Of a stretch of 64,000 nt of DNA, positions 5,107-35,400 are shown in pieces. The stretch is taken from the NCBI GenBank assembly GCA_013398955.1, contig VWPU01014174.1:26232-90231 (forward strand), read 5' to 3'. Position 1 is the stretch's first letter. The number at the start of each line of letters is the position of its first letter. Made by a program: the position numbers and the translations under genes. This stretch comes from Callaeas wilsoni (lineage: Eukaryota > Chordata > Aves > Passeriformes > Callaeidae). The notes below the pieces were generated by a model. That model searched no databases and was not told the origin of the DNA. It was given only the letters and a program-made list of their open reading frames with translations.

Positions 5107-8100
5107 TCAGACCACTCTGTTCTTCACCCTTTCAAAGATCTGCATCACTTTTCCTGCTGGGATGCAGCCTTCCCGCACGATGGTGATGCCACCTTCCCAG
5201 AGGGAGAATGAACAAGTCAGGACAATTCCCAAAGGGGCACAGAAAGGAATGTAAAGGAACATCTCGCACCAGCAAAGCCACTCAAAATAAAGTTGTGTGG
5301 AAGGACCAGAAACTTGTCAGAAAGTGAAACCACCAATGAACACTGACCTCACACTTTGTTCAATGGTTTGGTTTTCCACTAATGAATCCCTCTCAAATGT
5401 CAGCCCGGAGCCACCCAGGACACCTCAGCGTGTGCTGCTGCGTCACTGTGGGCAAGCTCCTGTGCCACCCTCATTGTGGTGGTCCGAGGCAGCACCCACC
5501 CCTCCTCCCGGCAGCACCCACCTTCCCACTCAGATTTTCCTTGCACAACTGTGTTTGTCCTCCTGCCTTGCTCCCTGTCAACACAGAGGTCCTCCCAGGA
5601 CATCTTTTGTTTGCTTCTCTTCATCAACATGTTTGCAAATGTCCGGGCACTCAAGAGCTGTTACTCTTGGAGCACTCTGTGCTGCCAGATTGATACTGGG
5701 AAAGGCATGGAGACCTCCCAGGAAAACGCAATTGCTGACACAAAGGGCGGTTCTCACACTCACTTTCATCAATCTTTGTGCAGTTGACCACAGTGGATGC
5801 CACCACCTCGTCAGACTCTCCATCACAGAGAACACCCTCCAGCTTATGGCCAAGGCGCCTGTGGGGGTAAAAATAGCAACAACCCTTCACAGAACTTGCT
5901 GTGACCTCGTGCTGAGGCTCCCCTCGGTGCAGGACGTCAAACCGAGGTCTGCCACCACTTAAACAGGTGGGTGGCACTGCCAGTGACCAGGTACTCACGA
6001 GATGACCATGTCGTGGTGGGTGCTGTCCACCTCCCCACTGGGGTTGGCCGAGGTGATGGCCAAGGGCCCGGTCATGTCGATGAGGTGCACCAGGACTGTC
6101 AGGTCAGGGACTCGGATCATGATGCTGTCCTGGGTTCCCACCCTGCTGTACCCTGCTCCGACTCCTGGAAGGATAGGCAGAGGATGTTGGCAGAAGCACG
6201 GCTGGCACAGCCCCTGTCGTGGCACCAGGGGGAATCTCCTGCTTTCTTTTGGAAGTGACCCTGCTCCATGCACCCAACTACATGTGTCTTTGTGGACGTT
6301 TATTGCTGAGCAGAAATCTGTGAGAGCAGAGGTACAATTTGGGGTCTAACTGGGTAAAAAGGAAATGATTCATGGCTGGAGACATCACAGCTGTTTCCAT
6401 GGACACGGGATCTCCCTATATCCCAAAGCCTGACTTCCTGTGATGACTGCCCATCCTCCCATCCTCCACCACCTTCCTCTGCCTGTTAAACATGGGTAAC
6501 TCAGAATCACAGAATCAGCTGGGTTGGAAAAGACCTTTGAGATGATCGAGTCCAACTGATGACCCAACACCACCTTGTCACCCAGACCATGGCACCAAGT
6601 GCCACATTCAGGCTTTTCTTAACCACCTCCGGGGATGGGGACTCCAACACCTCCCTGGGCAGCCCATTCCAATGCCCAATCACCCTTTCAGTGAAGACTT
6701 TTTTCCTAATGCCCCACCTAAACCTCCCCTGGTGCAGATTAAGGCTGTTCCCTCTCCTCCTGTCCCTGTTCCCTGGGAGCAGAGCCCGACCCCCCCGGCT
6801 GCCCCCTCCTGTCAGGGAGTTGTGCCGAGCCACAAGGTCCCCCCTGAGCCTCCTTTGCTCCAGGCTGAGCCCCTTTCCCAGCTCGCTCTGCTGCTTCTCA
6901 CAGGACTTGTGTTCCAGCTCCTCCAGTTCCCTCATTCTGTGCTCTTTCCATGGATTCCCAGGAGCCAGGGTTGAGGTGAATCATCCCAGTGCTCACAGTG
7001 CCTGCCTGTGTCCAAATGGTGGGAAGGCAGAGGCGATGAGCAGGGATGACCATCGGAACCCTCTCATCTCCTGGATGCTCCACCCTGGTTTGCTCATTCC
7101 CAGTGAACAGCGAGGGGCTTGGGAGAGGGGACCCTCCCAGGCTGAGGAGCCTCCCTTGCTGCTGGTTAAAGAACTCATCCTGCTGACTCGCACTCTTGAT
7201 GAGTCATTCCAGCTGATTAACACCCTCTGCTAAACATCCACCAAAGCATCTGGGAGCTCCAGAGGGGATTTCTTGGGATAAAGTGACCAGAATCTCTCCC
7301 CATCACATCCCAAAGGGTGTTGGGATTGCAGACCCGCCGTGCCGAAAACATGAAAGGGGGGCGGAAGGGTTGTCCTGCTCATCTCACCCAACTTCTTCAG
7401 CCACTCTCCCTTCCGGATAATGCAGCCGATGCCACCGGGATAAACGTTTTCCATGAATTCCCAGAGCAGGGGGCTGATGGGCGGAGCAGCTGCTCGCAAC
7501 TGCTCCAGGTTGGAAATAAAGATGCAGATGGGCTTTTCTTGAGGCCTGTCCTGAAAAAACAGGGAGAAAATAGATGAAGAGGGAAAGTTTACCTGGAGAA
7601 CCTCGAAGCTTGCTGGGATCCTGGTTCGTGTGTTTCCCAGGGAGCAGGAACTCCAGGCAAGGAAGGTGTTGTGTCTGCACAAATGCTGAGCTGTGATTGA
7701 TGCCCCAGCTCAGATCTGCACGTGCAAATTGAAGAGGAGACAGAGCAGCAGCCTGCCCTTGGGAGCCTCTGGGATGCATCCAAATCCCCCTCTTTAGGCA
7801 CATCCATCACAGGGACAGCAACGCTCGACTCAGTATCAGCATTTTTTGGATCTTACACACCAGGGGCCTGATTTTTTCCAAACTTCTGCTGGTATAAACC
7901 AAGGTCAAATGCACCAATTCATGATGGGATAAGGGATGGAGAGCTCAACCCCCTGCAAACCAACATCTCCGTTATCACCCCTCCAGTGCTATGACAGAAG
8001 CTTGGTGAAATAATAAATTCGGTGTAAAACCAGCAGTGGAGATGGAGGGGAAATAAAACAAGCTCACAAAGCGGTGTCATTTCAGTCCTCAACTGACATC

Positions 8101-11100
8101 AGCTTCAGTGGGGCCAAATGACTCAGGAACTGGGCATGTATTTACATTCTGTTTGTATTCTCTCATCGGCAGGGAAGGTCAGCACTGGCACCAGGGCAGC
8201 ACAGAAGAGACGGCCTTTGTGCCGCTGCTCGCCTTCGGGGCCAGCTGAGATCGTCTGTTATGGTTATTTCTCCAGGCTAGCCAGGAAATTGCCTCATGGA
8301 CAACAGACAGGGCCAGGCTGCTAAGGCTGGATTGAAGGTGCAAACTCTGCGGCTGGTTCCAGCACTGAACGGCTCCAAAGGTCTGGGGAAATGCAGCCCT
8401 GGGATTCTGATTCAGCACTTCATAAGGCACAGAGGACAAACACTGGTTTGGACCCGCTTGTGAGTGGCTGTTCCTGTTTGGAGTTGTGCTTTGTCCATCC
8501 CAGGGATGTCGCTGCCTAATTCCCAGTGCTCCAGCCTGGAGCAGAGGGGCTGTACCCCGGCTTGCTCAGAAAATGGTCCCTGATATTCTGGTGTGGCTGC
8601 TCACGAGCTGCCCATGGTCACCTCCTGAGTCTTGGGACAGCCTGAAACCAGGGGCTCCCCTTTCTGCTTCTGCACGAACTCATGGGCAGCACACAGAGCC
8701 AGGTAAGCAGAGACATCCCTGAATTCCCACCTTGATCCTGTAGACCTTCTCGATGGCTTGAGGGTGTTTGCAAGAGGCTGCCAGGGCATACACGGTGTCT
8801 GTGGGGACCCCACACACGGCCCCTGTGTTCAGCAGCTCCGCGATGGTCCTCAGGCCACTCGTCAGGTGGGACTTGGGGCAGACACAGGGCAGGGGGTCTT
8901 CCTCGTCCTTCTTGGAGCTCTGGACCTGCCAGGAGCCAGGAGGCAACGAATAAGCAAATATATGGAACACAGGGCAGGATTCCATCCACCCAAATGCAGG
9001 GATCCACTGTGATCCCTTGGCAGTCCAAGGGCAGGGGCAGCACCTCTAGGGATGCTTCCCCCAAAGCTGGCGAGGTGAATTCCAATTATCAAAGTCAAAG
9101 AGAGCAGCTCAGGGTGGACATTTCAACTGCCAATGCCCAAAATTACGGGAGATGAATCCCACCCACCACAGCTTCCTGGAGAAATGGCTGCTCTCCAAAG
9201 TGACCTAAGGAAACTGTTCGGGAATCCAAAATCCAGAAGAGGATGGAGTTTGAAGTGCATTCCCATGAAATGCTGATTTAATGGAAATGTTTCTCTGCAG
9301 CAGGAATTGGAGCTGTCAGATCCATCACCCTGGATGGGGGAATTGCCCTGGTCAGACACACCAGATGGCAGAACGAGTCTGAAGTTAAGAAAAGATGGGG
9401 AATTCTTGCTGTCCAGTCTGGGAAACTTCTTAAACTCCCTGCTCCCAAGGTTATGGCTTTGACACTTCAGTCTACCAGGAATTCTTAGATTGGAGATGGC
9501 TGATTCCACAGGACCATGGAGACAGGCATTTTGGAGCAAGGTAGGAGTCTTGTGAACATCCCTGCCCTTTGTCCAATGTTATTCCTAAAGGAAGAGAGGT
9601 CATTTCCAGCTCACAACTCCCTACAAAACTGCCATGACCAGGACTTCGAACAGCACTAAAGCGTTCAGCAGAAGGGAAATTCCACGGGAATCTGCACTGA
9701 AGGCCCCAGAATATCCACTCTGAGCAAGGAAGGTACACCACCGTGCCAAGCATCTCTTACTGTGAGCAGAGGAGGTCCCATCACCAGGAGGTCCTTCCCG
9801 AACATGCAGTTGGTCAGCGAGGCTGTGGCTCCATAGAAACAGATGACGCTGAGGATGCTCAACATCACAACTGGAAAAAAATCCCAGAGTCAGAGGTAGG
9901 AAGGGTGATTGAATCCCCATCCCTGGAGGGATTTAACAGTGTGGACGTGGCACTTGGGCACAGGGCTTAGCAGTGCTGGGGGAATGGTTGGACTCAGTCT
10001 TGGAGAGCTTGGATTTCATGATGCTGTGATTCTGTTCTGTGGTGACAAAGTCCTGGTGGAACAGCTCCCACTAATCCCCTTGCTAAAGCACTCCATGGAA
10101 TTAAAACTAAAATTGTCGCTTGCAGCAAAGCCAAAGCTTCAGCAGAACTACAGCCATTGACAGTGGTGGCATGTTCAGCTCATCCCACGCCTCATGGAAC
10201 ATCCATGGTGAAGCAGAGCTGGCCAGAACCTCCAGAGGTGCTCTGATCCAGCAGTATTGGGTTTATTTGGAAGCTCAAGGCCCTGGGGATGATAGGAGGA
10301 AAGATTTCCTTCTCCAGCCATGCTTGCACACACACCAGACTTCCAGGGAAAGAGGAACGCTCTCTGTTTGATTTTCCCACACTGAGCTTTCCACACTGCT
10401 CCCCAACCCCGGACCCACTCCCTGCACTCTGTGGGTGAAGGTTTAATGTCCAAGTTCCCCTAAAACTCACTTTCAAATGGCAAAGGGAGATTCTCCAGTG
10501 TAAAGAGCAGAAAACAAATGGTCAAGACCTCCATGGCCAGGGTCAGGCAGAACAGCACCACATTAAAAGAGGAAGCTGTGGAAAGAAACACAAACAAGAG
10601 GGACCCACATCAAGCACGGCCCATAAAATGTCCATGAACCAGCAGAAGAGTTCCTAAATCAACTGAGGCTTGTTTGATTAAACTGAGCAGCCTCAGCTCT
10701 GATTTCCCTGTCCATGGAGGAACAAAGAGGCACTGCCAGGGTCTGTTCAGCCCTCAGGTTCCATGGACAGGCTGCCAAACCCTTGATCTGCCAGGACACT
10801 GTGCTCACATGGAAAACACTTCTCCGGCAGCCAAGCAAGTTCTGATTTACACCAGCTGGGTTGGAGTGTGGCTGTGGATTGCTGCCAGTGGCCCAGTGCA
10901 TTGAATACTTTCACCTGATTTGATCCTTTTATTTTCTTTGAAATGTTCTCGCATTCCCTCGGGGCTGTTTCTCCTAAGCCCAGCTCAGCTTCTGTTACTG
11001 GCTGTGGGCAAAACATCCCCGTTCTTGCTTAATCAGAGCGACAGGGAGAGCTGAGCCTCCCTCACTGGTGCATCTCCACCACAGAGCAACCACAGGAGGA

Positions 11101-14078
11101 TTCATGATCTGACCCCAAACGCCCCTCAATAAACATCCCACGTGGTTCTGAGACTCACCCAAAACGATTAAAAAAGCATTGAGCACCAAAAAGGCAACGG
11201 AGCCAGCAGTGAATCCCTCGGTGTTCCCCACCCCGATGTCCAGCAAGTGGCCTGAAACAGAAGCAGCACATCGGGTTATGAGCAAACCACGAAGAGCAGC
11301 GTGACAGGAGAGCGGCAGGAGAGCGGCAGAGCCTCAGCTGGGATTACTGCAGCTCCTGCTGATGGATGGTGGCCTCATAAAAACCCTCCCTCATCAACAC
11401 CCGCTGCTTCTGCCATGCGAAGTATTTGAGGTATTAACCGTGGGACTGGTGACGGTTATCCAAAAAAAGCTCTGGATTTTACCTCCAGCTTGGACTACTC
11501 AGGGCCTGGCTGGACACTTTAGCAGCTCCTGCCACATGTCTGAAGCCACAGCTTTAACTTTCCCCACAGGTACTTATTTTAAGAGTGCCTGGCATAGAGG
11601 CTGCATGAACACTCTGCCCATCTGGAGCAAAATGCAGCTTTTAAAAGCCAGGCTCAGCTTCTGAGAGCTTCTTTCATGGCTGTGACCAGCTGGGATAAAC
11701 TTCTCCAGGCTCCCGAAGGAGAAATCCAGAACCTGGAGTCTTCCACTGCATAAAAGCATCTCCTGAGTTGTTATTCTGAGATAACAGCCCAGAGCCAGCC
11801 CTATCTCACAATGTTTCTGCAGGGAAATCTTGGCTTTTATTGAAGACACAACTTGGAGTCCTGGAGCTGAGAGCACCAAGTGCCTGCAGAAATGACAACC
11901 AAGTGCAAACTGGGGTGATTTGCGGATTTTTTCCAAGGAGGAATATCAGTAAACCTGATGTCATTGACTCTCCTGAAAGAAGGAATTCCACTGAAGAAAG
12001 CAATCTGAACTTCCCTGAGAACATCCCTTAAAGCAGGAACCATCCCATGCTTTACCTGCCAGGCGCAGCCAGGTCCAGGCTGCCCAGAAGGCAGCGTAGC
12101 AGAACGGGAGCACAGATCCAAACCTCTTCCCGCCCTGCACCTGGATCCGGCACACGAACAGCTGCCCCAGGGCTCCCGGGATGAGCACGGAGGGGATGGA
12201 GAGCTGCTGTCTGCCCGTGTCACCCACGCTGCCCTGGGCGGCCGCAGCCGCAGCCAGGCCATTGCAGATGTAGAACAAAGCGTCTGGCACGGCAGCACTG
12301 GTGCCACTGGGAATGTCCTTGGACCTCGAGAGCCAGGTCTGGAGAGCCCCCAGCATGGCCTGGAGAGCCGAGCTGGACAGGGCCTGGGCACCCACGGGAA
12401 CCAGAACCTTCTCCCCGATGGAGTTGATGAGGCTGGCGAAGGTGGCGTACAGGGAGAGGGCGGTGCAGAGGCTGCAGGCGGCCCCCAGGAAGGGCCGGGC
12501 ACCAGGCAGTGGGATCTGGTGGACGAAGGCAGAGGTGAGGATGATGAAGGAGGCGTTCTGCAGCATCTCCAGGGTGTCTTTGTGGGTCGACATCAGAAAC
12601 AGCAGGCAGGCGGTGGCCAGGAAGAACCACGCTCCAAACATTCCCAGCCTGCTGTCCTGAGCCGCGGGCAGCCCAAGGGAGGTGGTGAGCACAAACTCTT
12701 CCCAGGACATCACCAGCCAGAGGAGGCTGTGGACACCAAACTTGGTGGTGTGGTAGCTGTCCCCTCTGAGGTAGCTGTAGAAGCTGGAGAGCAGCTGGCA
12801 GCTGGAGATGATGGATATCCACGCTGCTCCCACACAGAAGGTCTTCATGTACCCAAAGAAGTAAAAGGCAAATATAAAGGGTGACACAGCGTCACAGATG
12901 TTCCCCAGGGCCATCGGCTCCGCGTACTTTGTGTTCTTCTTCTTTTCCTCCCCGAGGGCCTTGGAGGAGCTTTTCTGTGCCGACCCCAGCAGGAGGACAT
13001 TGAAGAGGGGGTGCCCAAAGCCAGGCAGGACGTACCTTTGAGTGATGCCCTTGAGGAGCAGAGCCACAGCCCCGTACAGCCCGCACAGGACAATGCCCAG
13101 CTCCAGGACTCCGGACACCACCAGGGCCCAGTCCCCGAAGAGCGCGACCGCCTCGAAGCCCAGGGCCAGCGCGATGGCCCCGAAGATGAAGGGCATGATG
13201 TAGTTGACAGTGGCCGAGCAGAAGGAGAGGATTAAGGAGATGGCAATGTAGGCCACCAGCCCGGCCACGGCGCTCTGGCTGGCTGAGGGCACAGCTGTGC
13301 CGGAGGCTGGGAATTGGCTGGCATTCCCGGAGGGAAGCGTTGTGTTCTCCAGGGAGGGATACGCGGCAGACAGGACACGTGTGGCCCCGTAGCTGCTCCA
13401 CAGAGCAGAGAAGGTGAGGAAGGCCGCGCCTCCAAGGTGGTCATACTTGCGGAAGGCGAGAAATCCGGCCAGGAGCTGGACAAAGCCTCCAATCAGGATG
13501 AGGTGGACACCTGAGGGAGGCAGGAAGGGGTCAGGTGTGAAGCCAAGCACAAAAGGGCTGGAGCTGCAGGAAGCTCCAGGGCACACCCCGTGGCAGGTCC
13601 CACCCTTCCAGTGAGCAGCCCTGTGGCCTCTGCCTGCCCCTCTTCCCACCTTTATGGGAATTTCTGGGGCCCCTGAACCCCTTGGCTCAGTGCGGTGAGC
13701 AGGCCCAGGGACGGTTTGGATCTAGCAGGGAATGGCACATGGAATATTTGGCCCAGTGGCTGGGGAAGGAGGAACAGCCATCCCTGGGAGCACACAGTCC
13801 TGCACAATGGACACAGCCCACATTTCCCCACCATCCCACCAGTGGTGTCCATGGGGATGATCCTCAAAGAGTTCAGGGGATGTTCAGCCCCACCCACCCC
13901 GCCCTGAACAGCAGCACTCACCTGCCAGGACCTGCTCTGCTGCCTGAGGCCCGAGGCTGGTGGCGGCCACGGTGAAGTTCTGCAGGCACAGGAGGAAGGC
14001 GCTGACCACGTTGCCGAGCAGCCCCAGCACCCCCGGCTCGCTGTAGAAGACGGCGGCGAACCCCTCGGCGCTCGCCAT
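5107..14078 (-). CDS. Triple AceTr (GPR1/FUN34/YaaH) membrane protein fused to a YrdC/Sua5 domain, 10 exons
   Basis: Exons, in transcript order: 14078-13922, 13510-12056, 11251-11159, 10575-10471, 9870-9761, 8925-8731, 7550-7388, 6164-5999, 5858-5764, 5192-5107 (TGA at 5109-5107). All introns are GT-AG, and the phases join to one 2,625-nt frame of 874 residues. The ATG at 14078 has a GCC-ATG-G context. Residues about 14-217, 250-427 and 461-640 look like three copies of the six-helix AceTr fold: copy 1 has EPGVLGL, GGFVQLLAGF and a closing RYVLPG; copy 2 has EPMALGN and a closing KVLVPVG; copy 3 has PGALGQLF and a closing GKDLLVMG. Residues about 660-874 are a YrdC domain with VPTDTVYALA, K705/R707 (IKDRP) and S798-A-N800 (TSAN), the threonylcarbamoyl-AMP synthase signature. 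Function is unknown: the family suggests small-carboxylate transport, and the YrdC part suggests ATP/carbonate-type binding. The first AceTr motif has E where bacterial members have N. Confidence 0.85.
6504..6935 (-). mobile_element. CR1 LINE fragment, about 430 bp, in the transporter-YrdC gene
   Basis: Starts AATCACAGAATCAGCTGGGT (CR1 3' end) and runs through the conserved 3' UTR and the end of the reverse-transcriptase frame region. Lies in the intron between exons 7550-7388 and 6164-5999. Confidence 0.85.
9900..10035 (+). mobile_element. CR1 LINE 3' fragment
   Basis: CCCTGGAGGGATTTAACAGT ... GTGGCACTTGGGCACAGGG ... ending CATGATGCTGTGATTC; intron of the transporter-YrdC gene. Confidence 0.8.
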
Positions 14079-15169
14079 GGCCCTTCCAGACAAAACAGCA
14101 GAGTCGGCCCTCGCCCTCACAGCCTCCCCGGCAGCGGCGTCTGCAGCGGGCTCGGGCACCCGGCCAGCCTTCAGAGCCGTGCCCCTGCCCCGAGCAGGGA
14201 CAAACTGGTGACAGGCTCAGGTGTTTCCATGTTCCTCCCCGCGCCTCGCTGCAGACAAAGGCTCGATTCAAAGCACCACTTGAGGTGCCTACTTTCCGCA
14301 GCCCTATCCAGAAAAAACACACACAACCTATTTAGGCGACCAGGATTCCTGGCAAAAACATGTTTAGGTGCCCCAAAGCGCTGCAGGTGGTGGTGATGGT
14401 TGCTGTCCCCTCTTCTCCAGGCTGCTGGAGATGGAGAGGCATGAATAGCCCAACACAAACCAACAGACATCCAGACGAAACCCACAAGGTATTTTTGAGC
14501 CGTTCCAGGACGTTTCTTATCCACTGTTGCAGACAAACAGGGCAGGCACGGTGCACACACACACACAGTCTCCCTTCCAGATGGAATTTTCCAGCTCCAT
14601 CCCTTTCTTGAAACCCCAGTGACTAAATAGGCTATTTTCAAACCCTTCATATTTCTCCCATGAACTCGTCTGTTTGCAGGCAGCCCCCACGTTTCCACTC
14701 CTCAGCACTCCTGGGTACCAGGAGCTGAAGTTTTCTCTCTGGAGGGTTTTGTTGGGAAACAAAGATGAAAATAAAACAGCAATGTTCTTGTTATTTGGAT
14801 ATTTTTAGAATATTTGGTGAGCTAAAAAAGCTGGAAAAGGAGAAGGTGATGTATTCTGTTGTCAGCCATTCCAAAGAACCCTTTGGAAAGGGAGGAAAGC
14901 TCCGCTATTGTTAGGGGAAGCGAGGAGGAGGGAAGGAGCACCACCCAAAGAAAAATAATATGGGAATAATAATGAACCTAAATCCCATGATCACACAAAT
15001 CCTCAGCACAAATTTACATTTTGCAAACATCAGTACCCTCTGGACTCTCTCGTTCTGCTAAAACCCCTGTATTTTCCTCTCTCCATTTATTCTAAAGGAT
15101 GTCACTTCCCCAAAGGAAGAAGGATGAAGGATAAATCGGCTCCTGACAGCTCCAAACTGGTTTGGTAGC

Positions 15170-15246
15170 TTTTAGCCTTTCCAAATAAGGAAAGGCTAAA
15201 AACTTTAGCTTTTAGCCTTTCCAAATAAGGAAAGGCTAAAAACTTC
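15170..15246. repeat. Tandem pair of perfect 13-bp-arm hairpins
   Basis: A 40-bp unit occurs twice. Each copy holds TTTTAGCCTTTCC and its exact complement GGAAAGGCTAAAA around a short AAATAA-type loop. No coding context. Confidence 0.85.
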
Positions 15247-16394
15247 CCCCAAGCAAAGCTCGGGGAACAATCAATTATTCAATTATTTGGTTGTGCTAAA
15301 GACTGGAATTTGGGTTCAGAGACAGAGATGCACCAAATCCCAGTTCTGGGGCAGGAATATTCCCTTTTCCCATCAAGGCAGGCCCCAAGGAACTCTGTGC
15401 CCTTGAGCAGAGCTGAGCCTGTGGATTCCACGATTTTGCCTTTTTTTTATGATTTTAAATGACACTTCTGTATAAAGAAGCAGTTTGGTTTAAATGGTTA
15501 TGCTTGGAAATGAGCCACAAAATTAAGTTCCTGCAGATGTTTTGCCCTGAAACAGCGCAGGCAGTGGCTCAAAGGCACGCTCAGAGCCCCTGCTTGGAGT
15601 GGGTCCCTGGAGGAGGAGGGTGAGCTGGGATTTGGGAGGGACATGGGAGGGAGATTTGGGCTGGCCAGGTGACTCCTTGGCTCCCAGCAGCGGTTTTTAA
15701 TTTGCCAGAGCTCATATTGTTGTTGTTTTCTGCATAACAGGCCTGCAACAAAGAGCTGGGAGTGGGGAGGGATGGAGAGACTCAACTCACAGGGATGTTT
15801 TCCTCTTCTTCCAGTGCAGACATGGGAGAAGGGAGGAAGAGAAACATCAGGACATGCTGTGTCAGGCTAAGGAGGTGTAAAGGGGAAGGAGTGAGAGGAT
15901 TCAGCCCAAGATACGGAAAAGGAGGAGGAGGAGGAGGGTTTGGGGTTGGAAGCAGCTGCAGTCGTACCCTCTGCTCACACCTACCCCACACACACCAACC
16001 CAGACTCGCGGTCCCTGCTCTTGGACCAGTTTGCAGCTGGGCATTGTCCCTGCCTCTGTTTCCTGCAAGGTCAGGACACGTCAAACCATGAAAATCCTCC
16101 TGGGGTTGTCTCAGGAGCAGCAGCACCGGAATGCCAAGGGCTGCACTGAGCCTGGAAAAACGAGGCTCAGCAGGGGAACCCCCAGGCGGCTTTTCTGCTC
16201 TGGTTTGGCTCCGGGATAACCCCACCCATGGGTGCTGTCACTGTGAGGAGCCATTTCTCCATGTGCACCACAGAACACTGGTGGTGCATCAGGATACCGT
16301 GGGATTGTACAGGAGGCAGAGGAGCAGACGGAAAATCCCTCTCTCCCAGGTGGGATTAGCAGCTCTCTGCACACCCAGGGCACCCGCAGCACAG

Positions 16395-16970
16395 CCACTG
16401 TCCAGGAAAACCGGGATGGAGATGTCCCAGGGCACCAGCAGCACAGCCACTGTCCAGGAAAACCGGGACGGAGATGTCCCAGGGCACCAGCAGCACAGCC
16501 ACTGTCCAGGAAAACCGGGATGGAGATGTCCCAGGGCACCAGCAGCACCAGCAGCACACTGTCCAGGAAAACCGGGACGGAGATGTCCCAGGGGACCAGC
16601 AGCACAGACACTGTCCAGGAAAACCGGGACGGAGATGTCCCAGGGCACCAGCAGCACAGCCACTGTCCAGGAAAACCGGGACGGAGATGTCCCAGGGCAC
16701 CAGCAGCACAGCCACTGTCCAGGAAAACCGGGATGGAGATGTCCCAGGGCACCAGCAGCACAGCCACTGTCCAGGAAAACCGGGATGGAGATGTCCCAGG
16801 GCACCAGCGGCACCAGCAGCACACTGTCCAGGAAAACCGGGATGGAGGCGTCCCAGAGCACCAGCAGCACCAGCAGCACACTGTCCAGGAAAACCGGGCG
16901 GGAGATGTCACAGCGGACCAGCAGCACAGCCACTGTCCAGGAAAACCGGGATGGAGATGTCCCCGTGCTG
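16395..16970. repeat. 52-bp minisatellite between the two divergent genes
   Basis: About 11 copies of a unit starting CCACTGTCCAGGAAAACCGG, spaced 52 bp with some CAG-rich length variants. Long open frames on both strands are by-products of the repeat. It lies in the transporter-ACOD1 intergenic region. Confidence 0.9.
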
Positions 16971-18308
16971 AGGAGACACTTGGACACCTGGGGTACTGCC
17001 AGAGCGCTGCACCTCCCGGAGGGATGGGGCAGCTCGGGACCATCCTTCCCTTGCTCAAATCCCTCTGCAGTGAGGGTAGAGCCAAAGCCACACCCTCCCT
17101 CATCCTGCCCCCTCCACATTTTTTCCTTTCCCTGCTTGCCCCCGACATTCCTCACCCTGGAGGTTGCGGGAATGCTGTGAGAGGTCCTCTCTCCCTCCTG
17201 GCTCCTGTCCCGCGGTGACCTCTGAGCCACATGGGACAGGCTCTGGACACCACTTCCTTCACTCACTGCTGTCCTCACGACAACTTCCCTTCACCCCCTT
17301 CCAGGAAAGGTCATTCCCATCTCATCCCACTCCCATGGGGCTGTTAGGCTTTGCAGGATTCACTCTGTGCATCCGACAGTCGCTGCCGCTTCCCTGTGAT
17401 TGATATTAACGGGAATATTCCAGGGCACGGACATTCCGTCCCCAGGAGGCTGGAGCAAGGCTCCCCATGCCATGGAACACATCTACAAACACCAAACCAT
17501 TCCATTCTCACTCATCCCCAGGGGCATTTTGCCATTAGTTTTCCATCCCACCTTGTTAGCGATAACAAACATTTACAGAGCTCTGAGGAAACACTGCCTC
17601 TCTCCAGATAAACATGGAAAGAGAACAAGATTCATTTTGGATAAGCACACAGCAAGATGAACAGTGCACAGCCACAACACACAGCTGGATTTCACATCAC
17701 AGCCCTGCCTCTCCTCTGGTGCAAACCAGCACAGAATTGCCAGGGAGACATTGCTACGACAAACGTCTGCATGGGAGTTAGTAAAAAATTCAATTTTAAA
17801 TAAAGGTGTGTCCCACTAGGTTGTTATTCTGCCCAAAATAATAAATGTCCCCAGGTTCCACTGCTGGACAAAGCTAAGAGCCATGCATTCCCCCAAAATC
17901 CAAACATTGCTTTGGGAATGAAGGCTCCCGATGTTCCCTGGAAGCTCCAGGGTGCACTCCCAGTTCAGTGACCCAGCAGAGCTGGAGATGGAGAAGGAGA
18001 CCTGGGAAAGACTCAGCCAAACACCCAAACACTGAAGGTATTCGAGAAAAGCATCCAAGAAAACCACCACTGCCTGACTTCTGCCTCTGCAGCCGGGATT
18101 TACCTGCTTTGGTGACACTTCGGCTCAATGGGAGGATGCTCTTGTCCCTCTCATTTCCTGGTAAATCCCACTTTTATAGTCCTCCTCGGGAGGAGGAGCC
18201 TGGTGCCGGTTGCTTCACCCATTGGCACCTGCAGCATTTTGGAGACAGGAGTTTCCTTGAACCTTGTCAGTTATTGTCCGAAATATTTTTTTATTTCCTG
18301 AAACGGGG

Positions 18309-18318
18309 GGGGGTTCCC
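18309..18318 (+). promoter_or_regulatory. NF-kB-like site upstream of ACOD1
   Basis: GGGGGTTCCC fits the kB consensus GGGRNWYYCC and lies about 130 nt upstream of the TATA box. A weaker relative, GGATTCCCC, is at 18353-18361. ACOD1 is known to be induced by LPS and NF-kB, so the position makes sense. Binding is inference, and the site sits in a G-run. Confidence 0.35.
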
Positions 18319-18449
18319 TTCTGTCCAGTAGAGACAAACCACCCCTCCTCACGGATTCCCCCCACCCTCTGGCTCCCCAGGGGCTGATGTCATCCCCCTG
18401 GAAATTCAGTTGCACAAAAACAGAAAGCAAATTGCCTTTTGGACACAGA

Positions 18450-18455
18450 TATAAA
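18450..18455 (+). promoter_or_regulatory. TATA box of ACOD1
   Basis: TATAAA about 95-100 nt upstream of the proposed start codon at 18550. It places transcription initiation near 18480 and gives a 5' UTR of about 70 nt. A TATA promoter fits a strongly inducible gene. Confidence 0.55.
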
Positions 18456-18549
18456 CCCTGCCACCAGCACCTTCCAGCCACACACCTCTGCCATCCCTCG
18501 CGCCGAGCACACCGAGCTGGGAAAAGCACTGGGAAAAGCAGCCACCAGC

Positions 18550-21500
18550 ATGGTCTACTCCACCTTCCAGGTAAAACTCTTCCAAGCAAAACCCTCCCCA
18601 TCTCTGAGCTTGCCTTTTGCACTTTAAGGAGGAAATGTCGCTTTCCGGGTGGTTCCTCCACCGGTCCAGCTGAGCACGGCGTTAAATGGGAACCTGCCCG
18701 AAAAGTAACAAATTCCAATGGCTTTCACAGTCACTTAATTCAGCTACTGACCTTTTCCTGCCATCCTGCTCCTTTCATGTGTCCCAAACATCCTCTGGAC
18801 CCTGCCATGTGGGGTTTTTTGTTGCTGGGATGTGCTCCGTGGGTTTGGTTCCTCGTGCCCACTCCGAGCTGGTCCCGCTTGCTGCAGGATCTCGTGGCAG
18901 GGCTGCAAAGGCGCTGCTGCCCCTTCCGCTGTGTGGCTTTATTTCCCTGGGTGTTCTTGGCATCCCTGCTGGACGCAGATTTGGAAAATATTTTTTCCCT
19001 CCTTTAAATATGTTGTTACTTTTATGTGCTCGTTTGATCTGTGTCTCACGATGAGAGGCACAACCAAGAAAACTGCTCTGAGAAAGCTTCCAGCAGTTCC
19101 AGTGACAAATTCCCTCTCTGTGTCTCTCCTCTAGAAATCCCAGAAGTTCTTGGCAAGCTCTCGGCAAGTCCACAAAACTGCTGCCCACGGTTTGTATCTC
19201 TCAGCATTCCCCATCCTTTCCTAGCGGGCACCCCTAAATAATCACAGCATTGCTGGGAAAGAGGCGCTGGGCTGGGCACACCGAGAGAAATCCTCAAATT
19301 CTTGGAAGGAAAAGCTTCCGAATGTTTGGGGGTCTTGTGGTGCTTTGTGCCCTCGGGGATAAAGCACCAGGAGAAAAGCAGCAAAGAGTAAAAATGTGGA
19401 TTGTTAGTCCTGTGCTAAACCAGAATTTTGACTGGTTTAGAACCAGACTTACCAAATTCTTTGACCGCAAATGTAAGATGTCGAAAGGGTGGCTCAGATC
19501 CTTAACTCCTCCACTTGTCACTGCTTCCTAATCACACCTGATCCTGCTCTGGGCATTGCCTGGGGTGATTCATGGATCTCTTTCTGTGGCTCCAGCACTG
19601 CCCAGCTTTGGACAAATTAACCACAACTTGCCTGTGTAGACACTTGGTCTATTTTGTCTCTTAATTTGGTCTGTTTGTCTATTAACTGATCTTAAAATGT
19701 GTTCTTGGTCCATTGTGTTTATTAACGTCTTTTTAAAATTTTATTTTAAGTTTATTATAAGTTTATTAACTTCTTTTAAAAAGGGCTCTTGGTTTATTGT
19801 AAGTTTATGTTTATTGACTTATTTTAAAAGATATTCTTAGTCTATTACATCTATTAATTTATTTTTAAATTAGTTATTAATACAATAAATGCTAGGAATG
19901 TTGCTTAATGAACACTTGGGGACCACAGAAATAACAGTAATCCACAGGGGTTTATTAGGTCTTGGATCAAATTTAATTTTTTAGTGAAGTCCTGCCATAC
20001 CAGAAGGAAAACCCCAGAGTCACGGAATACTGTTAGCTGAAGGGTTAAAAAACCCCGCTGCCTGCTGAGGTGACAAAGAGCATTTGATGCCGGGAAGGAA
20101 ACAATCCAGCTTTTCTGGGTGCTGGGTGATTGGAGCAGATTTTCCTGCAGCCTCTCCAAGCCCTGACATCACCGCTCCGCTCCGGGAGGGCGGCGGGGGG
20201 AGCCGGGATGCTCCCGGGGCCCCGGGCTGGGGTCGCCAGCGGGTCCCGAAGTGCTGAGGGCCGGGATTCCCGCAGGAACGCGTTCCCCAGGAGCGGGAGG
20301 TTCTCCCGGTGCTCCAGGCCGTGATGACCTTCCCAGCTGTGTTTACAGGAGGCTCGGGCTGCGCTCGAGGTGAGCCCAGGCGTGAGCCAGCGCTCCGTGA
20401 GTCACTGATGTGACATTTCGGGATGAATCCAACCTAGGGAAATTAGGGAATGCTCACTTCATTAATTGCCGTGTCTGCTGTTCCAAAAACAAAGCCTCTT
20501 GTGTACCTGCCCACCTGGATGTGCTTTCCTCTCGGAGCAAAGTATTTTTCTTTCTTTCACGTGTGATTAATTTAATTTAGACATTAATTCAGCTTTTATC
20601 TGCATCTGTGTGTGCACCCCCACATCCATCCATAAGTAAATGTATGGATTTGCCATCCTGCAAGTGTTGGCTACATGGAATTTTATTTTTCCTGCTCTCC
20701 TGTGCGCTCTCAAAATAACCTTATAAATTATAACAGGCCATAACAATTTTATTCTAGGAATTAGAAATATAATTATATTAATTATATTCTGTATTCCAAT
20801 TCTAGAATTAGAAATAATGTCATAAATTATAAATTAATATACGAATTCTAAACATTATATATAAAAATTAATGTATATAATAATGAGCTATATATAATCT
20901 AAGCAAGGCAATTTGTCACTGAAATGAAAAAATACAATAGACACAAACTGGGGATTTTCCATAGAATTTTAACTTATTTTTAAGGATTAGCATCCTTTGG
21001 AGTACATAGGGCTTAAGAGCTTTGTTGCCTGAGTCAAGACATTTCTGTGCCTTGTAGGATGAAATATCCGGATAAATCAAGGCTTTGGGTCTAGTCCTGC
21101 TTTCCAAAAAATTATGGAAGTTTTGGATTTCTGTGGTCCATTCCTGCCTCTGCCTTTCCTCTGGATAAAGGGACATCATTTGTATTGACACCTCCCAAAA
21201 AATGGTTGTTGGACCCCCAAGGCGAGGGGATGGGTCCGAGCTCTGAAGCTGCTTCACCTGAACCTTCTGGAAGCCACCCCACGAGGTGCCCAGAGCATCC
21301 GTGGAATATGGAATTTTATATTTGGAACATATGGAATCTGAGAGTATCCAGGTTGGAAGGGAGCCATGGGGATGATGAATTCCAGCTCCCTGCCCTTGCA
21401 GGACTCCTAAAACTGACCCAGCTGGCTCAGGCAGGTGCAGCTCCCCGAGCCCGGGGACAGCGGGGTGAGGAGCCGCGGCTGCCAGCGCAGGGCTCACCTT

Positions 21501-24500
21501 GTCCTTGTCCCCTCCCTGTGTCCCGGCGCTGCAGTGGTGGCCCGGAGCGCTCCCGAGGAGACCGTGACCAGCAGCTTCGCCTCCTTCATCCACGCGGCCC
21601 GGCCCGAGCACTTGTCGCAGACCGTGCGGCAGCGGAGCAAGAGGATGATCCTGGACAGCATCGGCGTGGGGCTCGTGGGCAGCACCACGCGCGTCTTCGA
21701 CATCGCCCTGCGCTACTGCCGGGTAGGGACAGCCCCGCCACCGCCACCGCCACCGGCACCGCCACCGCCACCGGCACCGCCACCGGCACCGCCACCGGCA
21801 CCGCCACCGTCAGGGCTGATCCCGGCGGCTGCCGGGGCTGGGGGTGCCTGGCACCATCCCCGCTCCCTCCAGGGCTCGCCTGACATTCCCTCCTTTCCAC
21901 AGGAGCTCTATTCCTCGGTGGCCGTGAGCTCTGTCTATGGAAAGCCAGGAGTGAAGCTCTCCCCGACGCTGGCAGCCTTCACCAACGGCGTGGCGGTAAG
22001 GCTGGATCTTCCCGGGGATCTGTGCTCCCTGCTCTTCCAGGGGAATCTGTGCTCCCGGCTCCTCCAGGGGAACCTGTGCTCCCTGCTCTTCCAGGGGAAT
22101 CTGTGCTCCTGGCTCTTCCAGAGGGATCTGTGCTCCCTCCTCTTCCAGGGGGATCTGTGCTCCTGGCTCCTCCAGGAGGAGGGAGCACAGGGGAACCTGT
22201 GCTCACAGCCCTTCCCGGGGATCTGTGCTCCCGGCTCCTCCAGGGGAATCTGTGNAGGAACCCGTGCTCCCTCCTCTTCCAGGGGAATCTGTGCTCCCTC
22301 CTCTTCTAGGGGAATCTGTGCTTCCTGCTCTTCCAGAGGGATCTATGCTCCTGGCTCCTCCAGGGGAACCTGTGCTCCCTCCTCTCCCGGGGGGATCTGT
22401 GCTCCCGGCTCCTCCAGGGGAACGTGTGCTCACAGCCCTTCTAGGGGAATCTGTGCTCCCTCCTCTCCCGGGGGGATCTGTGCTCCCGGCTCTTCCAGGG
22501 GAACCCGTGCTCACAGCCCTTCCAGGGGAACCTGTGCTCACAGCCCTCTAGAGGGATCTGTGCTCCTTCCTCTTCCAGGGGGATCTGTGCTCACAGCCCT
22601 TCCAGGGGAATCTGTTCCAGTTTTTCCAGGGCAATCTGTGCTCCCGGCCCTTCCAGGGGAATCTGTTCCGGTTTTTCCAGGGGAATCTGTGTTCCTGGCT
22701 CTCTCAGGGGAATCTGTGCCCTGTGGTGCCAGGAATCAGCATTCCAGGAAACAGAGTGGTCACTGATGGGGGACAAAAGCCGGGAATCTCGTGGCCGAAG
22801 CGCCCATGGGGGCACTGAGTGGAGGCTTTGGCAGAATTTCCTCAGGAATATCAGCAAGGAGCCCTCATTTCCCCAGCGTCCAGCCACACCCACCAGCACG
22901 TCCTTGTCTCTGTCTCCCTGGCAGACTCATTCCATGGATTTTGACGACACCTGGCACCCTGCCACTCACCCCTCCGGGGCCGTCCTGCCCGCTCTCCTGG
23001 CAGCTTCCCAGATGCTCCCTCCGAGCACCAAACCCAACGGCCTGGATTTCCTGCTGGCATTCAACGTGGGCCTGGAAGTGCAAGGGAGGCTCATGCACTT
23101 CTCCACTGAGGCTCACGACATTCCCAAAAGGTAAGGCTCCTGTTCTTCGCCGAGGAGGAAGAGGCTTGGTGAGTCTGGATTTTAAAATGTTAGTTTAGGT
23201 TAAGCCCAGTTTCAGTCCAGTTTAATTTAGCTTTACCTGAGGGTGCAGCCTTACTGAGAGCCAAATGCCAGAGGCGATTGCACAACATACTTATTTGGTG
23301 ATTTCCAGGGATTTTGCCTCAAAAATAACCCTCAGGAGGACTCCCAGGGAGTCTGCAGTGCCATCGCCTGACCCAGCCAGGGCAGGATCCCAGAGCCAGG
23401 CAGAGCCTGGTGGTGGGCACAGCCCCTGGACCAACCGCTGCCACCAGCAGTGCCCTGGTGTGATCTGAGGGATGGAATCAAGCAGGAACGGTTCCCTTGG
23501 GTGTGTTTGAGGCTGAATTATTTGTCTGAGGGATAGAAAGTTGGCTGTGTGGACACAAGCCGTGGCACCTCCTGGAGAAAGTTCTTTCTGGAGATGCTGA
23601 GATCCCCCTGGTGTCTCTGAGGAGGTTTCAAGCAGAAACTCAGTTTTCAGTGTTAATTTATGTTAACTAACTCTAAATTTAGAGTTAAACTAAACTCTAG
23701 TAAAACTTTGACTTGAGTTAATTTATTAGTTAAAATTTATGGTTAGATTTGGAGTCAGGTGAATCCCACCTGCACCAGAGCCACGAGGGAGTTCCACTGG
23801 CTGATGGGCCCCTCATTTTCCATTAATTTTTCCATGGGAGGGGTGCTTTGGTGTTTCCTGTGCCAGGCAGCCAGAGCTGCTCATTCCTGCCATCCCCCTG
23901 CAGGTTCCACCCTCCCTCGGTGGTGGGCACCCTGGGCAGTGCCGCGGCCACGGCCAAGCTGCTGTCCCTCAGCTCGGCCCAGTGCTGCCACGCCCTGGGC
24001 ATCGCCGCGTCCCTGGCCGGGGCGCCCATGGCCAACGCTGCCACCCAGGCCAAGCCGCTGCACGTCGGGAACGCCACCCGCCTGGGCTTGGAAGCGGCTC
24101 TGCTGGCGGCCCGAGGGATGGAGGCCAACCCCTTGATCCTGGATGATATCCCCGGCTGCTCCGGCTTCAGCGCCTTCTACAGCGTCTACCAACCCAAACC
24201 GCTGTCCACACCCAGCGAGCACCACGAGTTCCTGCTGGAAAAGCAGGATATTGCCTTCAAGCGATTCCCAGCCCACCTGGGGATGCACTGGGTGGTGGAT
24301 GCTGCCTTGTCCGTCCGGAACCTCTTCATCAACTACGCGGGGTCCTTCTCTCCCTCTCTGATCCGCACCATTGTGCTGAAGATCCCGGTGTCCAAGTACA
24401 TCAACCGGCCTTTCCCCAGCTCGGAGCACCAGGCGAGGCATTCCTTCCAGTTCAATGCCTGTGCTGCCCTGCTGGATGGAGAGGTGGGCCTGGGCTCCTT

Positions 24501-24822
24501 CTCCGAGAGCAGCATCCACCGGCAGGAGCTCAGGGAGCTGCTGGACAAGGTGGTGGTGGAGCACCCTGAAGACAACGTGGCCAACTTTGACAAGATGTAC
24601 GGAGAGGTGGCCCTGCTGCTGCACAGCGGGGACGTCCTGACGGGCAAATGTGACACTTTCTATGGGCACTGGAGGAAGCCCCTGAGCAAAGAGTCGCTCC
24701 TGAAGAAGTTTCGGGCCAACGCCTCCCACGTGCTTCCAGAAGAAAAAATAGAAGCCATCATCACTCTGGTGGACAACCTGGAGAACCTGTCAGACAGCTC
24801 CCAGCTGGCCTGCAGCCTGTGA
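18550..24822 (+). CDS. ACOD1: cis-Aconitate decarboxylase (itaconate synthase), 6 exons
   Basis: Exons: 18550-18570, 19135-19189, 21535-21722, 21903-21995, 22925-23130, 23904-24822 (TGA 24820-24822), giving 493 residues against 481 in human. ACOD1 converts cis-aconitate to itaconate in mitochondria of activated macrophages. The last four exons match the MmgE/PrpD family closely. Known active-site positions are kept: D124 and H134 in the MDFDDTWHPATH motif, H190 in FHPPSVVG, K238 in AKPLH, H312 in FPAHLGMHW and the Tyr of KYINRPFP. Exons 1 and 2 are inferred from phase: MVYSTFQ (phase 0), then 55 nt after CTCTCCTCTAG ending in phase 1, which fits exon 3. They give a basic, serine- and alanine-rich leader that looks like a mitochondrial presequence. 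The exon-2 donor (GTTTGT) is weak, so these two exons are less certain than the other four. Confidence 0.9.
19720..19895. repeat. AT-rich degenerate repeat in ACOD1 intron 2
   Basis: Irregular reiterations of TTTATTAACTTATTTTAAAA-like sequence. No coding signal. Confidence 0.5.
21728..21810. repeat. CCACCG/CCGGCA simple repeat in ACOD1 intron 3
   Basis: Hexamer-like CCGCCACCGGCACC tract immediately after the exon-3 donor at 21722. Confidence 0.85.
22005..22740. repeat. About 30-bp minisatellite in ACOD1 intron 4, with an N
   Basis: More than 20 imperfect copies of GGGAATCTGTGCTCCCTGCTC-like units between the exons ending at 21995 and starting at 22925. An N at 22255 marks a collapsed or gapped point. 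Frames on both strands stay open through the array but have no gene-like composition. Confidence 0.9.
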
Positions 24823-32472: not shown

Positions 32473-35400
32473 CTACATGTTGGACACGGTGATGGAGTTG
32501 AAGTAGCTCAGCAAGTCCTCCATGGTGAAGTCCAGGGCAATCCCCGCTCCTGCATAGCAGCGTTGGATGAGCTCCTCAAACTCCTGGTACTGCCGGATGA
32601 ACTCCTGCTCCATGGCCTGCCACACCACCTGGAAAACCAGAACCCCTGCTCCATGGCCTGCCACACCACCTGGAAAACCAGAACCCCTGCTCCATGGGCT
32701 GCCACACCACCTGGAAAACCAGAATTCCAGCTCCATAGCCTGCCACACCACCTGGAAAACCAGGATTGCAGCTCCATGGCCTGCCACATCACCTGGAAAA
32801 CCAGGATTCCTGTTCTGTGGCCTGCCACGCCACCTGGAAAAGCAGACCTCAGCTCTTGCCCCTGCCCCTGCAGCCATAAAGGCAGTACTGTCCTGAATCC
32901 CAAACCATCCCAGTGTCACACCCATCCCACTCCAGTTACCGGCAGAAGATTTTCCTCTGGGGACAGATATTTGCGGGTTTTCCTGTAAAGGGTCTCCAGG
33001 GCTCTTTTGACTTCCTTGCCAGGATATTTTTCGATGACTTTCCGGAGTTCCTGCTTGCTGTAGGCCAGCTGGAAGCTGACCTCCTCTTCCTTCACTCCCT
33101 GAGCCAGGCGGGCTTTCACTCCCTCAAAGAAATGCTGGAAAGGGAAGGAGACATTCCATGGTGAGCCATCCTAAGGTGGATTCCTGTGTCAGGGCTGACA
33201 CCTGATCGGTGTCCTCAGTTCCCTTGCCATGTCTAATTCTGTTGAAATGCACAAGTGGGGAGTGTTTAATGAAGTACTGGAGATTTTTGTCCTCCAGGAA
33301 AGCAGAGTTTAGGGAATTTTGTGGTTCTGTCCCCTCCCTGCTCAACAAGCAGCATCTCTAAGGGTTGCAGGCCCATGGAGCAATGGGGCTGCTGGAAAAA
33401 TCCCTCCTGTTCCTTGGTGCTCCTCCCAGTTTTCTCCCCACAGAGGGTTTGGAGCTGGGGGTGGGGATGGAGGATCCCAGAACCTGCAGAGGTGTAAAGC
33501 AAAACATAAATTTTTTCAGTTCTTGTGACATCTCTGCCACAGCTGGACAGGGCATTCCACATCTTCTGTAAAACAAGGGAATAATCCCTTCCTTCATCCT
33601 CCTGTGTTCAAACAGCCCAAGAATCTCTTTCGGTATTCTGGCTGCAACTTGGCAGTGGAGGAATACCCTAAATCCCAAGGATTTTAAGTTCCTAAATGTA
33701 TGGACTATTCCCAAGAACTAGGAGTGGGCTCCTGCACTACTTACACCTCTTTGCACCTTCTCTTGGTGAAGAGAAACTGAGGGAGATGGAGGAGGCCATG
33801 CCAGGATTTTGGGAAATCCAGGTGCCCTCATACCCCATTCACTTTGTTGTGAGCAATAAAATGATCCTTTCTGTGGAGAGTTGCCGGGATGAACCACACG
33901 TACTCACAGAGTTATTGGTGGAACTCCTTTTTTTGATTATTATAGGCCTGGTTATATACATTAGTCAGCTTGTTCACGAGCCACTTAGCAACTTAGGATT
34001 GGATAATAGCTATTATTATGCGTATAGTAATTAATGCGGATTGGCTATAGCTAAACAATCATGATTTTTCTTTATTCTTTTCTTGTGGTTACATGCTCCT
34101 GTTTTCTCATCCTGTCTTCCCATCTTGTTACTTTCTTACCAGTGACTTGGTTTCTTCTTTCTTGCTTATTCAGGATGATCAGGGTTGCTGAGGCCTGGGT
34201 TGTGCACATTCCAATGAGCAGCTCCCATGAGAAACTGCTCCCAGTATCCATTTTCTCTGAGAAACTGCTCAACAATTACTGAAACCTGGGTTGTGCATGT
34301 AGCTTAGCGCTGCATGTCCTTGCTCAGAGAGCCATTCTTCTACACCTTTCCATTGGAAAAGGGAGGGTTTGAAGCCATAGCAGAGCTCAGGTAGCACAAG
34401 ACATGGAGCTGATTCTCCAGCCAAGCCAACAAATGTTTGACAGCAACGACTGGAAACAAATTGGATGTAACAGGTCCCATAAATAATTCCAGCTGGGCTC
34501 CGTCTGCGAGACATTTTAGGAAGAGGGAAGGAGCGGAAGAGCCACGGTCTGGGGAAGGAGGGAATGTCTGATTGAGTTAGCAGAGCCAGATGCTCTTAGC
34601 TCAGTTAACAAAGCAGCCACTCGGGAAGTGGCTGGATGGATCAGCCCAGGCAGCCGTGAAAAAAGAACCGGGATCTGCCAGATGCCGGCACACAACCGGA
34701 GCGGGAATGGGAACAAACTGGGAACAAACTCCCCACCAGTGCTTTGGAATTCTGCCCCCCTTGTGTCTTGGTCCACCACCTGGGCAAGGGCACGAGGAGA
34801 AAGCAGCAGGAAAATGAAAAAATCCCGCACATGGTTTGGATTGTCAGTGAGAAGAGGGCGTGGGAAAGGCTTCCTTGTTGGCAGGCTGATCCCATTATCT
34901 GGATATAAGGAACTTTTTCCAGTGAGGACGAGCTGGGATAATCAATCAAACCTGCTCAGGGATGTGATAGAGTCCCACCACTGGAACTTTCAGGAAGTGA
35001 CAGGACAGGGAGCTGCAGAATCTCATCCAGGCAACCTCCCCAGTAAAGTTTGGACTGGATGATCCTTTGGGACCCCTTCCAGCCCGGGATTCTGTGATGC
35101 TGCTGAGGTGGGACTGCACAGCCAAACGCAGCAGCGGCCAGGGAAGGGAGCGCTGGACAGGACATTTCACATCTGCTGTAAAACAAGGGAATAGTCCATT
35201 CCTTTATACTCCTGTCTGTTCATACAGCCCAAGAATCTGTTTGGGTATTCCTGCTGCAATTTGGCTGTGGAGAAATACCCTAAATCCTAAAGATTTAGAG
35301 TTCCTAAATGTATGGACTGTTTCCAAGAACCAGGAATGGGCTCCTGCATTATTTACACCCCTTTGCACCTTCCCTTGGAGTCTGTGCTCAGACTGGGGGA

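Follow-up and report, generated by a model that had tools for sequence, protein, structure and literature searches.

Introduction

The closest described relatives of the gene analyzed here are the vertebrate ATO proteins, which, according to the accessible text of Ghasemi et al. (iScience, June 2026, PMC13316224), measure about 900 amino acids and consist of three Gpr1/Fun34/YaaH units followed by a C-terminal Sua5/YciO/YrdC domain. The same text places them in all major vertebrate lineages except mammals, states that protostomes lack the Sua5 domain, and proposes that two chains form a six-domain ring resembling that of SatP, whose own chains assemble as hexamers. The architecture is therefore already known, and the gene described below is a bird member of this family. 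SatP and yeast Ato1 are single six-helix chains with a Phe at the pore constriction and without an enzyme domain, while the enzymatic part of the fusion resembles TsaC/Sua5 proteins (PDB 9d3h, 9dg5, 6f87, and 1hru). The initial annotation of this locus held that no function had been described for such a fusion, which is still the case in the literature that we found, but the fusion itself has been in print since June 2026; for the trimer that it imagined within one chain, the accessible text of PMC13316224 substitutes the two-chain ring. No transport or enzyme assay of any vertebrate member was found in the literature.

Results

A single gene joins three AceTr repeats to a YrdC domain

The window, i.e. 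the whole stretch of 64,000 nucleotides of Callaeas wilsoni DNA analyzed here, contains ten exons on the minus strand (14078-5107) that join without a stop into a frame of 874 amino acids. All nine introns are of the GT-AG type, and the exons of the initial annotation proved exact. They are as follows (window coordinates).

Exon 1, 13922..14078, minus strand: start codon at 14078 and first helix of repeat 1; residues 1-54 match Corvus protein P0001 at 91%
Exon 2, 12056..13510, minus strand: remainder of repeat 1, whole repeat 2 (residues 250-427), and beginning of repeat 3
Exon 3, 11159..11251, minus strand: repeat 3
Exon 4, 10471..10575, minus strand: repeat 3
Exon 5, 9761..9870, minus strand: final helix of repeat 3, ending in phase 0
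Exon 6, 8731..8925, minus strand: linker and start of YrdC (PTDTVY ... IK)
Exon 7, 7388..7550, minus strand: YrdC (DRPQEKP, YPGG)
Exon 8, 5999..6164, minus strand: YrdC (SIMIRVPD, TSANPSG)
Exon 9, 5764..5858, minus strand: YrdC (CDG, ST)
Exon 10, 5107..5192, minus strand: C-terminus of YrdC (REG) and stop

Among the best 120 of 326 database proteins, the closest relative was that of Corvus cornix (94% identity over the full length), and 111 of the 120 covered at least 94% of the query. They included orthologues from birds, turtles, lizards, platypus, amphibians, lungfish, coelacanth, and ray-finned and cartilaginous fishes; their length is constant between sharks at one end and birds and platypus at the other. 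Five of them, with 867-887 amino acids, came from contigs of only 2,869-3,490 bases whose source is labeled 'lgn', which we take to be assembled sequencing reads. Since only spliced mRNA or a retrocopy gives an open reading frame of this size on a contig of about 3 kb, these sequences point to one mRNA running across the fusion. The earlier proposal of a single gene that combines three AceTr repeats with a YrdC domain is supported. In a separate observation, intron 7 contains at about 6500-6760, on the minus strand, what we take to be the 3' end of an avian CR1 element.

A second fusion gene, a platypus orthologue, and an octopus relative

When the Corvus protein was compared with the own genome of the bird (E ≤0.001), it matched the exons of the fusion and, more weakly, three YrdC-type places beyond the window, all on contig C7910. 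On this contig we found a second, divergent AceTr-YrdC fusion (13313-19736, plus strand), whose seven exons join without a stop into 791 amino acids, a length that excludes the first and last exons (not found in the DNA examined). It is located outside the window, about 12.9 to 6.5 kb before position 1, and at most 11.6 kb from the first fusion. The gene order on C7910 is second fusion (plus), fusion (minus), IRG1L (plus; see below), and an EXOC1-like gene (minus). Compared with the orthologues tested, the second fusion is 22-26% identical across its membrane portion and 34-57% across YrdC. PTDTVY and SANPTG are retained, and KRQ is present at the KxR position; its enzyme may therefore be altered.

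Contrary to the accessible text of PMC13316224, which excludes mammals, the platypus has an orthologue of 872 amino acids with 67% identity (P0026). Likewise at variance with that text, as regards protostomes, is an octopus model (P0286) whose YrdC domain is preceded by the linker and the closing part of repeat 3. The last helix of repeat 3 is joined to YrdC, more weakly, in a protein from a read assembly (P0280). In view of these two sequences, the fusion may predate vertebrates.

The neighboring gene is an IRG1-like paralogue of ACOD1

Head-to-head with the fusion, 7.5 kb from its start codon to the first coding exon found, lies a gene that belongs to the ACOD1/IRG1 family by sequence homology to solved cis-aconitate decarboxylases (human 6r6u, mouse 6r6t). 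The exon with its start codon was not found; the exons found are listed below.

IRG1L first coding exon found, 21535..21722, plus strand
IRG1L exon, 21903..21995, plus strand
IRG1L exon, 22925..23130, plus strand: E 4e-30 to ACOD1 structures
IRG1L last exon, 23904..24822, plus strand: E 1e-103 to human ACOD1 structures

The last exon showed 54-55% identity to human ACOD1 versus 71% to the elephant-shark protein 'immunoresponsive gene 1, like'. ACOD1 proper is present in the own genome on contig C1018, and its last exon scored 451 bits with human ACOD1, against 350 for the copy in the window; the two bird copies share 55% identity. Each of the 120 IRG1L proteins considered (best of 971) gave a better score against the window copy than against the bird's own ACOD1, a result that is partly built in because they had been found with the window copy. 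The neighbor is of the same family but falls outside the ACOD1 orthologue group, and since it is nearer to the elephant-shark protein than to ACOD1, which the bird keeps elsewhere, the IRG1L paralogue predates the split between sharks and bony vertebrates. Near the own ACOD1, no match to the fusion was present in the 20 kb examined on C1018. NF-kB-type sites in the window numbered 62 against 74 expected, a count that is uninformative.

Two other features of this part of the window were observed. Minisatellites occupy 16374-16963 and 22007-22719 (units of 52 and 27/54 bases, respectively), the second within an IRG1L intron. An EXOC1-like (Sec3) gene extends over 32919-50703 on the minus strand, where four of the ten open reading frames scanned gave Pfam matches to the Sec3 PIP2-binding, coiled-coil, or C-terminal regions.

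The fusion and IRG1L share contigs in most genera compared, with co-regulation in zebrafish

As a proxy for linkage, we used contigs of equal size and locus tags, bearing in mind that genes on the same contig need not be adjacent. The comparison drew on the best 120 of 326 proteins for the fusion and the best 120 of 971 for IRG1L; after entries without a contig size and 'lgn' entries had been left out (11 and 13, respectively), 109 and 107 were used. In 32 of the 39 genera common to both lists, the two genes were on contigs of equal size, and no size matched between different species. These genera span elephant shark, stingray, gar, teleosts, frogs, newts, caecilian, and lizards. Neighboring locus tags, which differ by one step in Phrynocephalus and Prochilodus and by ten in Albula and Aldrovandia, suggest adjacency in these four species, while in the window it is seen directly. 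Furthermore, in the antbird Sakesphorus, fragments of IRG1 and of YrdC share a single contig of 90,857 bases. In the remaining seven genera, the contigs were different; one of the two was below 1 Mb in four cases, and Engystomops and Eleutherodactylus had both genes on large ones.

Absences were read by eye from the two lists. No therian was among the 120 proteins listed for the fusion (best of 326) or the 120 for IRG1L (best of 971), and since the fusion list includes platypus and the IRG1L list echidna (P0145), this pattern suggests a joint loss in therians. Crocodilians are in the IRG1L list (P0136, P0183) and not among the 120 listed fusions; snakes were seen among the 120 listed of neither gene. 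No paper linking itaconate or irg1 with YrdC was among the literature found, most subscription papers being outside its coverage, and terms beginning with itacon- or synten-, IRG1, and ACOD1 are missing from the main text of PMC13316224. As far as we searched, the setting of the fusion beside IRG1L is therefore not in print, unlike its architecture.

Expression data came from zebrafish. Across 18 exposure conditions in Table 2 of PMC8877790, which contains only altered genes picked by its authors, irg1l correlated with si:ch211-153b23.4,.3, and.5 at r 0.90, 0.88, and 0.86. After exclusion of three genes that lacked values, these ranked among the five strongest of 62; the sixth gene had an r of 0.62, and the final eight rows did not exceed 0.10. 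In the same table, sult5a1 and si:ch211-207n23.2 tracked irg1l equally well and are possibly further members of the same response. According to the accessible parts of other studies, irg1l,.4, and.5 are in the top 50 changed genes of Shigella-infected larvae (PMC6980646) and among the top up-regulated genes at very low PFOS (PMC9228135), these two sources containing only.4 and.5 of the si:ch211-153b23 genes; irg1l,.3, and.5 are hub genes in one module (PMC11140123). A study of stim2-knockout zebrafish lists.3 with an adjusted p of 0.18 and does not contain irg1l. PMC7083608, which names a si:ch211-153b23 gene, turned out to hold a stickleback methylation table and was set aside as uninformative. 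Of the three candidate zebrafish orthologues (.3,.4, and.5),.3 is the name given to fusions of about 880 amino acids and.4 is labeled YrdC domain-containing. The neighboring gene, the linkage, and the zebrafish co-regulation give substance to the earlier hint at macrophages and itaconate.

The membrane repeats resemble SatP in predicted fold and differ at the constriction

The whole fusion protein scored 30.4 bits with PF01184 (AceTr, Gpr1/Fun34/YaaH; gathering cut-off 25), with two stretches matched, and five of eight full-length orthologues were also above the cut-off, the other three being below it (19.6, 21.4, and 24.4 bits). In the predicted structure, the six-helix SatP fold was recovered, repeats 2 and 3 matching SatP (PDB 5ys3, 5ys8, and 5zug); a second structure model was modest (mean pLDDT 67). 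Structural hits on XPR1, complex I, and designed cages scored well below those on SatP and were regarded as widespread ways of packing helices. With hhalign, repeat 1 matched repeat 2 weakly (E 7.7e-4 over 70 columns) and did not match repeat 3 (E 0.04).

Of the SatP motifs, the exact string NPAPLGL is not kept; repeats 1 and 2 have EP..LG in its place and repeat 3 a looser version. The Trp of SYGFW is retained in every repeat (W90, W317, and W528, each in 90 of 90 sequences). The Phe of the FLY constriction (F17 of SatP), by contrast, aligns with N23 (90 of 90), D259 (81 of 90, the other nine having Ser, Asn, or Glu), and N469 (90 of 90), and its Tyr (Y72) with F86 (Phe or Tyr), H313, and Y524. 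Itaconate is methylene-succinate, and an opened, polar pore as deduced from this alignment would fit such a dicarboxylate. In yeast Ato1, the substitution F98A or L219A, at the Phe or Leu of FLY, lets succinate through, and fungal AceTr members likewise vary in their motifs (PMC13316224, accessible text).

Although conservation is low in the loop that joins helices 3 and 4 of repeat 1, N-glycan sequons are present there in 87 of 90 sequences versus 50.7 expected after shuffling, which argues for passage through the secretory pathway and, with 18 helices, for a cytosolic YrdC domain; loop 12-13, predicted to be cytosolic, was sequon-enriched as well (24 versus 12.3 shuffled). The protein may be a glycosylated carrier at the cell surface or the phagosome.

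The YrdC domain keeps the ATP- and threonine-binding residues

With PF01300, the family of the TsaC/Sua5 fold, the fusion scored 120.9 bits (cut-off 25.1). K705, R707, S798, N800, S836, and R853 were present in 90 of 90 sequences and T682 in 87, with Ser in the other three, so that K-x-R and S-x-N are retained throughout, as had been noted at the outset. All seven, which make up the KxR/SxN tetrad and the T/S/R threonine site, are ATP- and threonine-binding residues of TsaC/Sua5 as named in the accessible text of PMC10321239, and T797, which precedes SxN, is the TsaC-type Thr. Furthermore, YrdC is the most conserved part of the protein: among 53 sequences, 78 of 226 positions were invariant, compared with 44 of 217, 25 of 178, and 26 of 188 in the three repeats.

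The domain differs from TsaC/Sua5 proteins in being fused to a membrane part and in lacking the SUA5 domain and His67. At the position of St-Sua5 H67 (Pa numbering), which holds the threonine hydroxyl (PMC10321239, accessible text), 70 of the 90 sequences carry Cys and 15 carry Phe. TIGR00057, the equivalog of L-threonylcarbamoyladenylate synthase, gave 115.5 bits, under its cut-off of 123.2, and the fusion is therefore not filed as that enzyme. In addition, contig C7272 of the own genome bears a separate YRDC gene, recognized by eye as the ordinary one. In light of the replaced His, the missed cut-off, and the separate YRDC, the domain need not make t6A precursors; judged by its residues, it is probably catalytically active.

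Discussion

The IRG1L neighbor, the linkage, the co-regulation, the polar pore, the kept sequons, and the conserved YrdC domain were all counted in favor of a membrane protein that carries small carboxylic acids for the itaconate pathway of jawed vertebrates, a reading to which we give about an even chance. Itaconate or a close relative would be the most likely cargo, a proposal with roughly the same chance; both substrate and direction are inferred. The protein would enter the ER and from there reach the plasma membrane or the phagosome, as the kept N-glycan sites suggest, with its YrdC domain presumably facing the cytosol. Its pore, opened by Asn and Asp at the FLY constriction, might let itaconate or a close relative through together with protons, and the YrdC domain might spend ATP either on controlling transport or on modifying what is carried. 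A ring resembling the SatP hexamer might be built from two chains with six repeats in total, after the proposal in the accessible text of PMC13316224.

Neither linkage nor co-regulation identifies a substrate, as sult5a1 and si:ch211-207n23.2 follow irg1l as closely. Also weighing against the itaconate reading are the seven genera with the two genes on different contigs, the crocodilians listed with IRG1L and not among the 120 fusions, the altered NPAPLGL string, and the sequons of loop 12-13. The fusion could serve activated cells as a general carrier of acetate, lactate, or succinate, tied to IRG1L by shared inflammatory control, which we regard as possible though unlikely. SatP is named a succinate-acetate permease, CaAto1 is assigned mainly acetate (PMC13316224, accessible text), and at least those two other genes share the co-regulation; however, linkage in most genera checked exceeds what shared induction needs, and the Phe of the constriction is replaced in all three repeats. 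Nor is a dedicated itaconate carrier strictly needed, since mammals move itaconate by MCT1/4 (PMC12658120) and by ABCG2 and SLC13A3 (cited in PMC12658120 and PMC13307414; accessible text of both).

Somewhat less likely still is that the two genes are unrelated neighbors kept together for want of rearrangement. The EXOC1-like gene next door belongs to the same block, so some of the synteny may simply be old, and crocodilians list IRG1L and not the fusion among the 120 of each; the absence of therians from both lists, with the fusion in platypus and IRG1L in echidna, and the matched zebrafish expression speak against it.

We consider it improbable that the enzyme leads, i.e. that the protein is a membrane-tethered threonylcarbamoyl-AMP synthase for tRNA modification in infection whose repeats are an anchor or a substrate sensor. 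Its conservation and its kept residues, including the TsaC-like T797, would agree with this, but the separate YRDC, the Cys or Phe in place of H67, and the missed NCBIfam cut-off do not, and 18 helices would be a costly anchor. The TsaC site adenylates N-carboxy-threonine, a dicarboxylate of similar spacing to itaconate. A bolder version of the itaconate carrier, similarly improbable, is a vectorial transporter-activator, in which the repeats would move itaconate and YrdC would adenylate it to itaconyl-AMP, trapping or activating it, so that IRG1L, the fusion, and its tandem partner would form an old itaconate module of jawed vertebrates lost in therians.

Two separate genes or an assembly artefact can be dismissed as extremely unlikely: the YrdC half stands alone in some database models, but most of the 14 whose starts were checked begin in repeat 3 or the linker, the vertebrate ones nest with full fusions in the tree, and the five proteins on contigs of 2.9-3.5 kb and the near-complete coverage in 111 of 120 argue against it. 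A distinct YrdC-only gene linked to IRG1L was rejected on the same starts and tree, the short proteins being partial models; one of the 14 (P0264) retains the true N-terminus and skips the middle.

The antimicrobial acid itaconate does not pass readily through membranes, and which carriers move it is being actively studied. Those named so far in mammals (MCT1/4, ABCG2, and SLC13A3) are general, whereas the fusion, if the carrier reading is true, would be a dedicated one, tied genetically to an enzyme that makes itaconate in fish, frogs, reptiles, and birds, with zebrafish and chicken as ready test organisms. It might likewise provide a TsaC-type enzyme with a role beyond tRNA modification in vertebrates, and would offer a reason why therians may differ in this arm of immunity.
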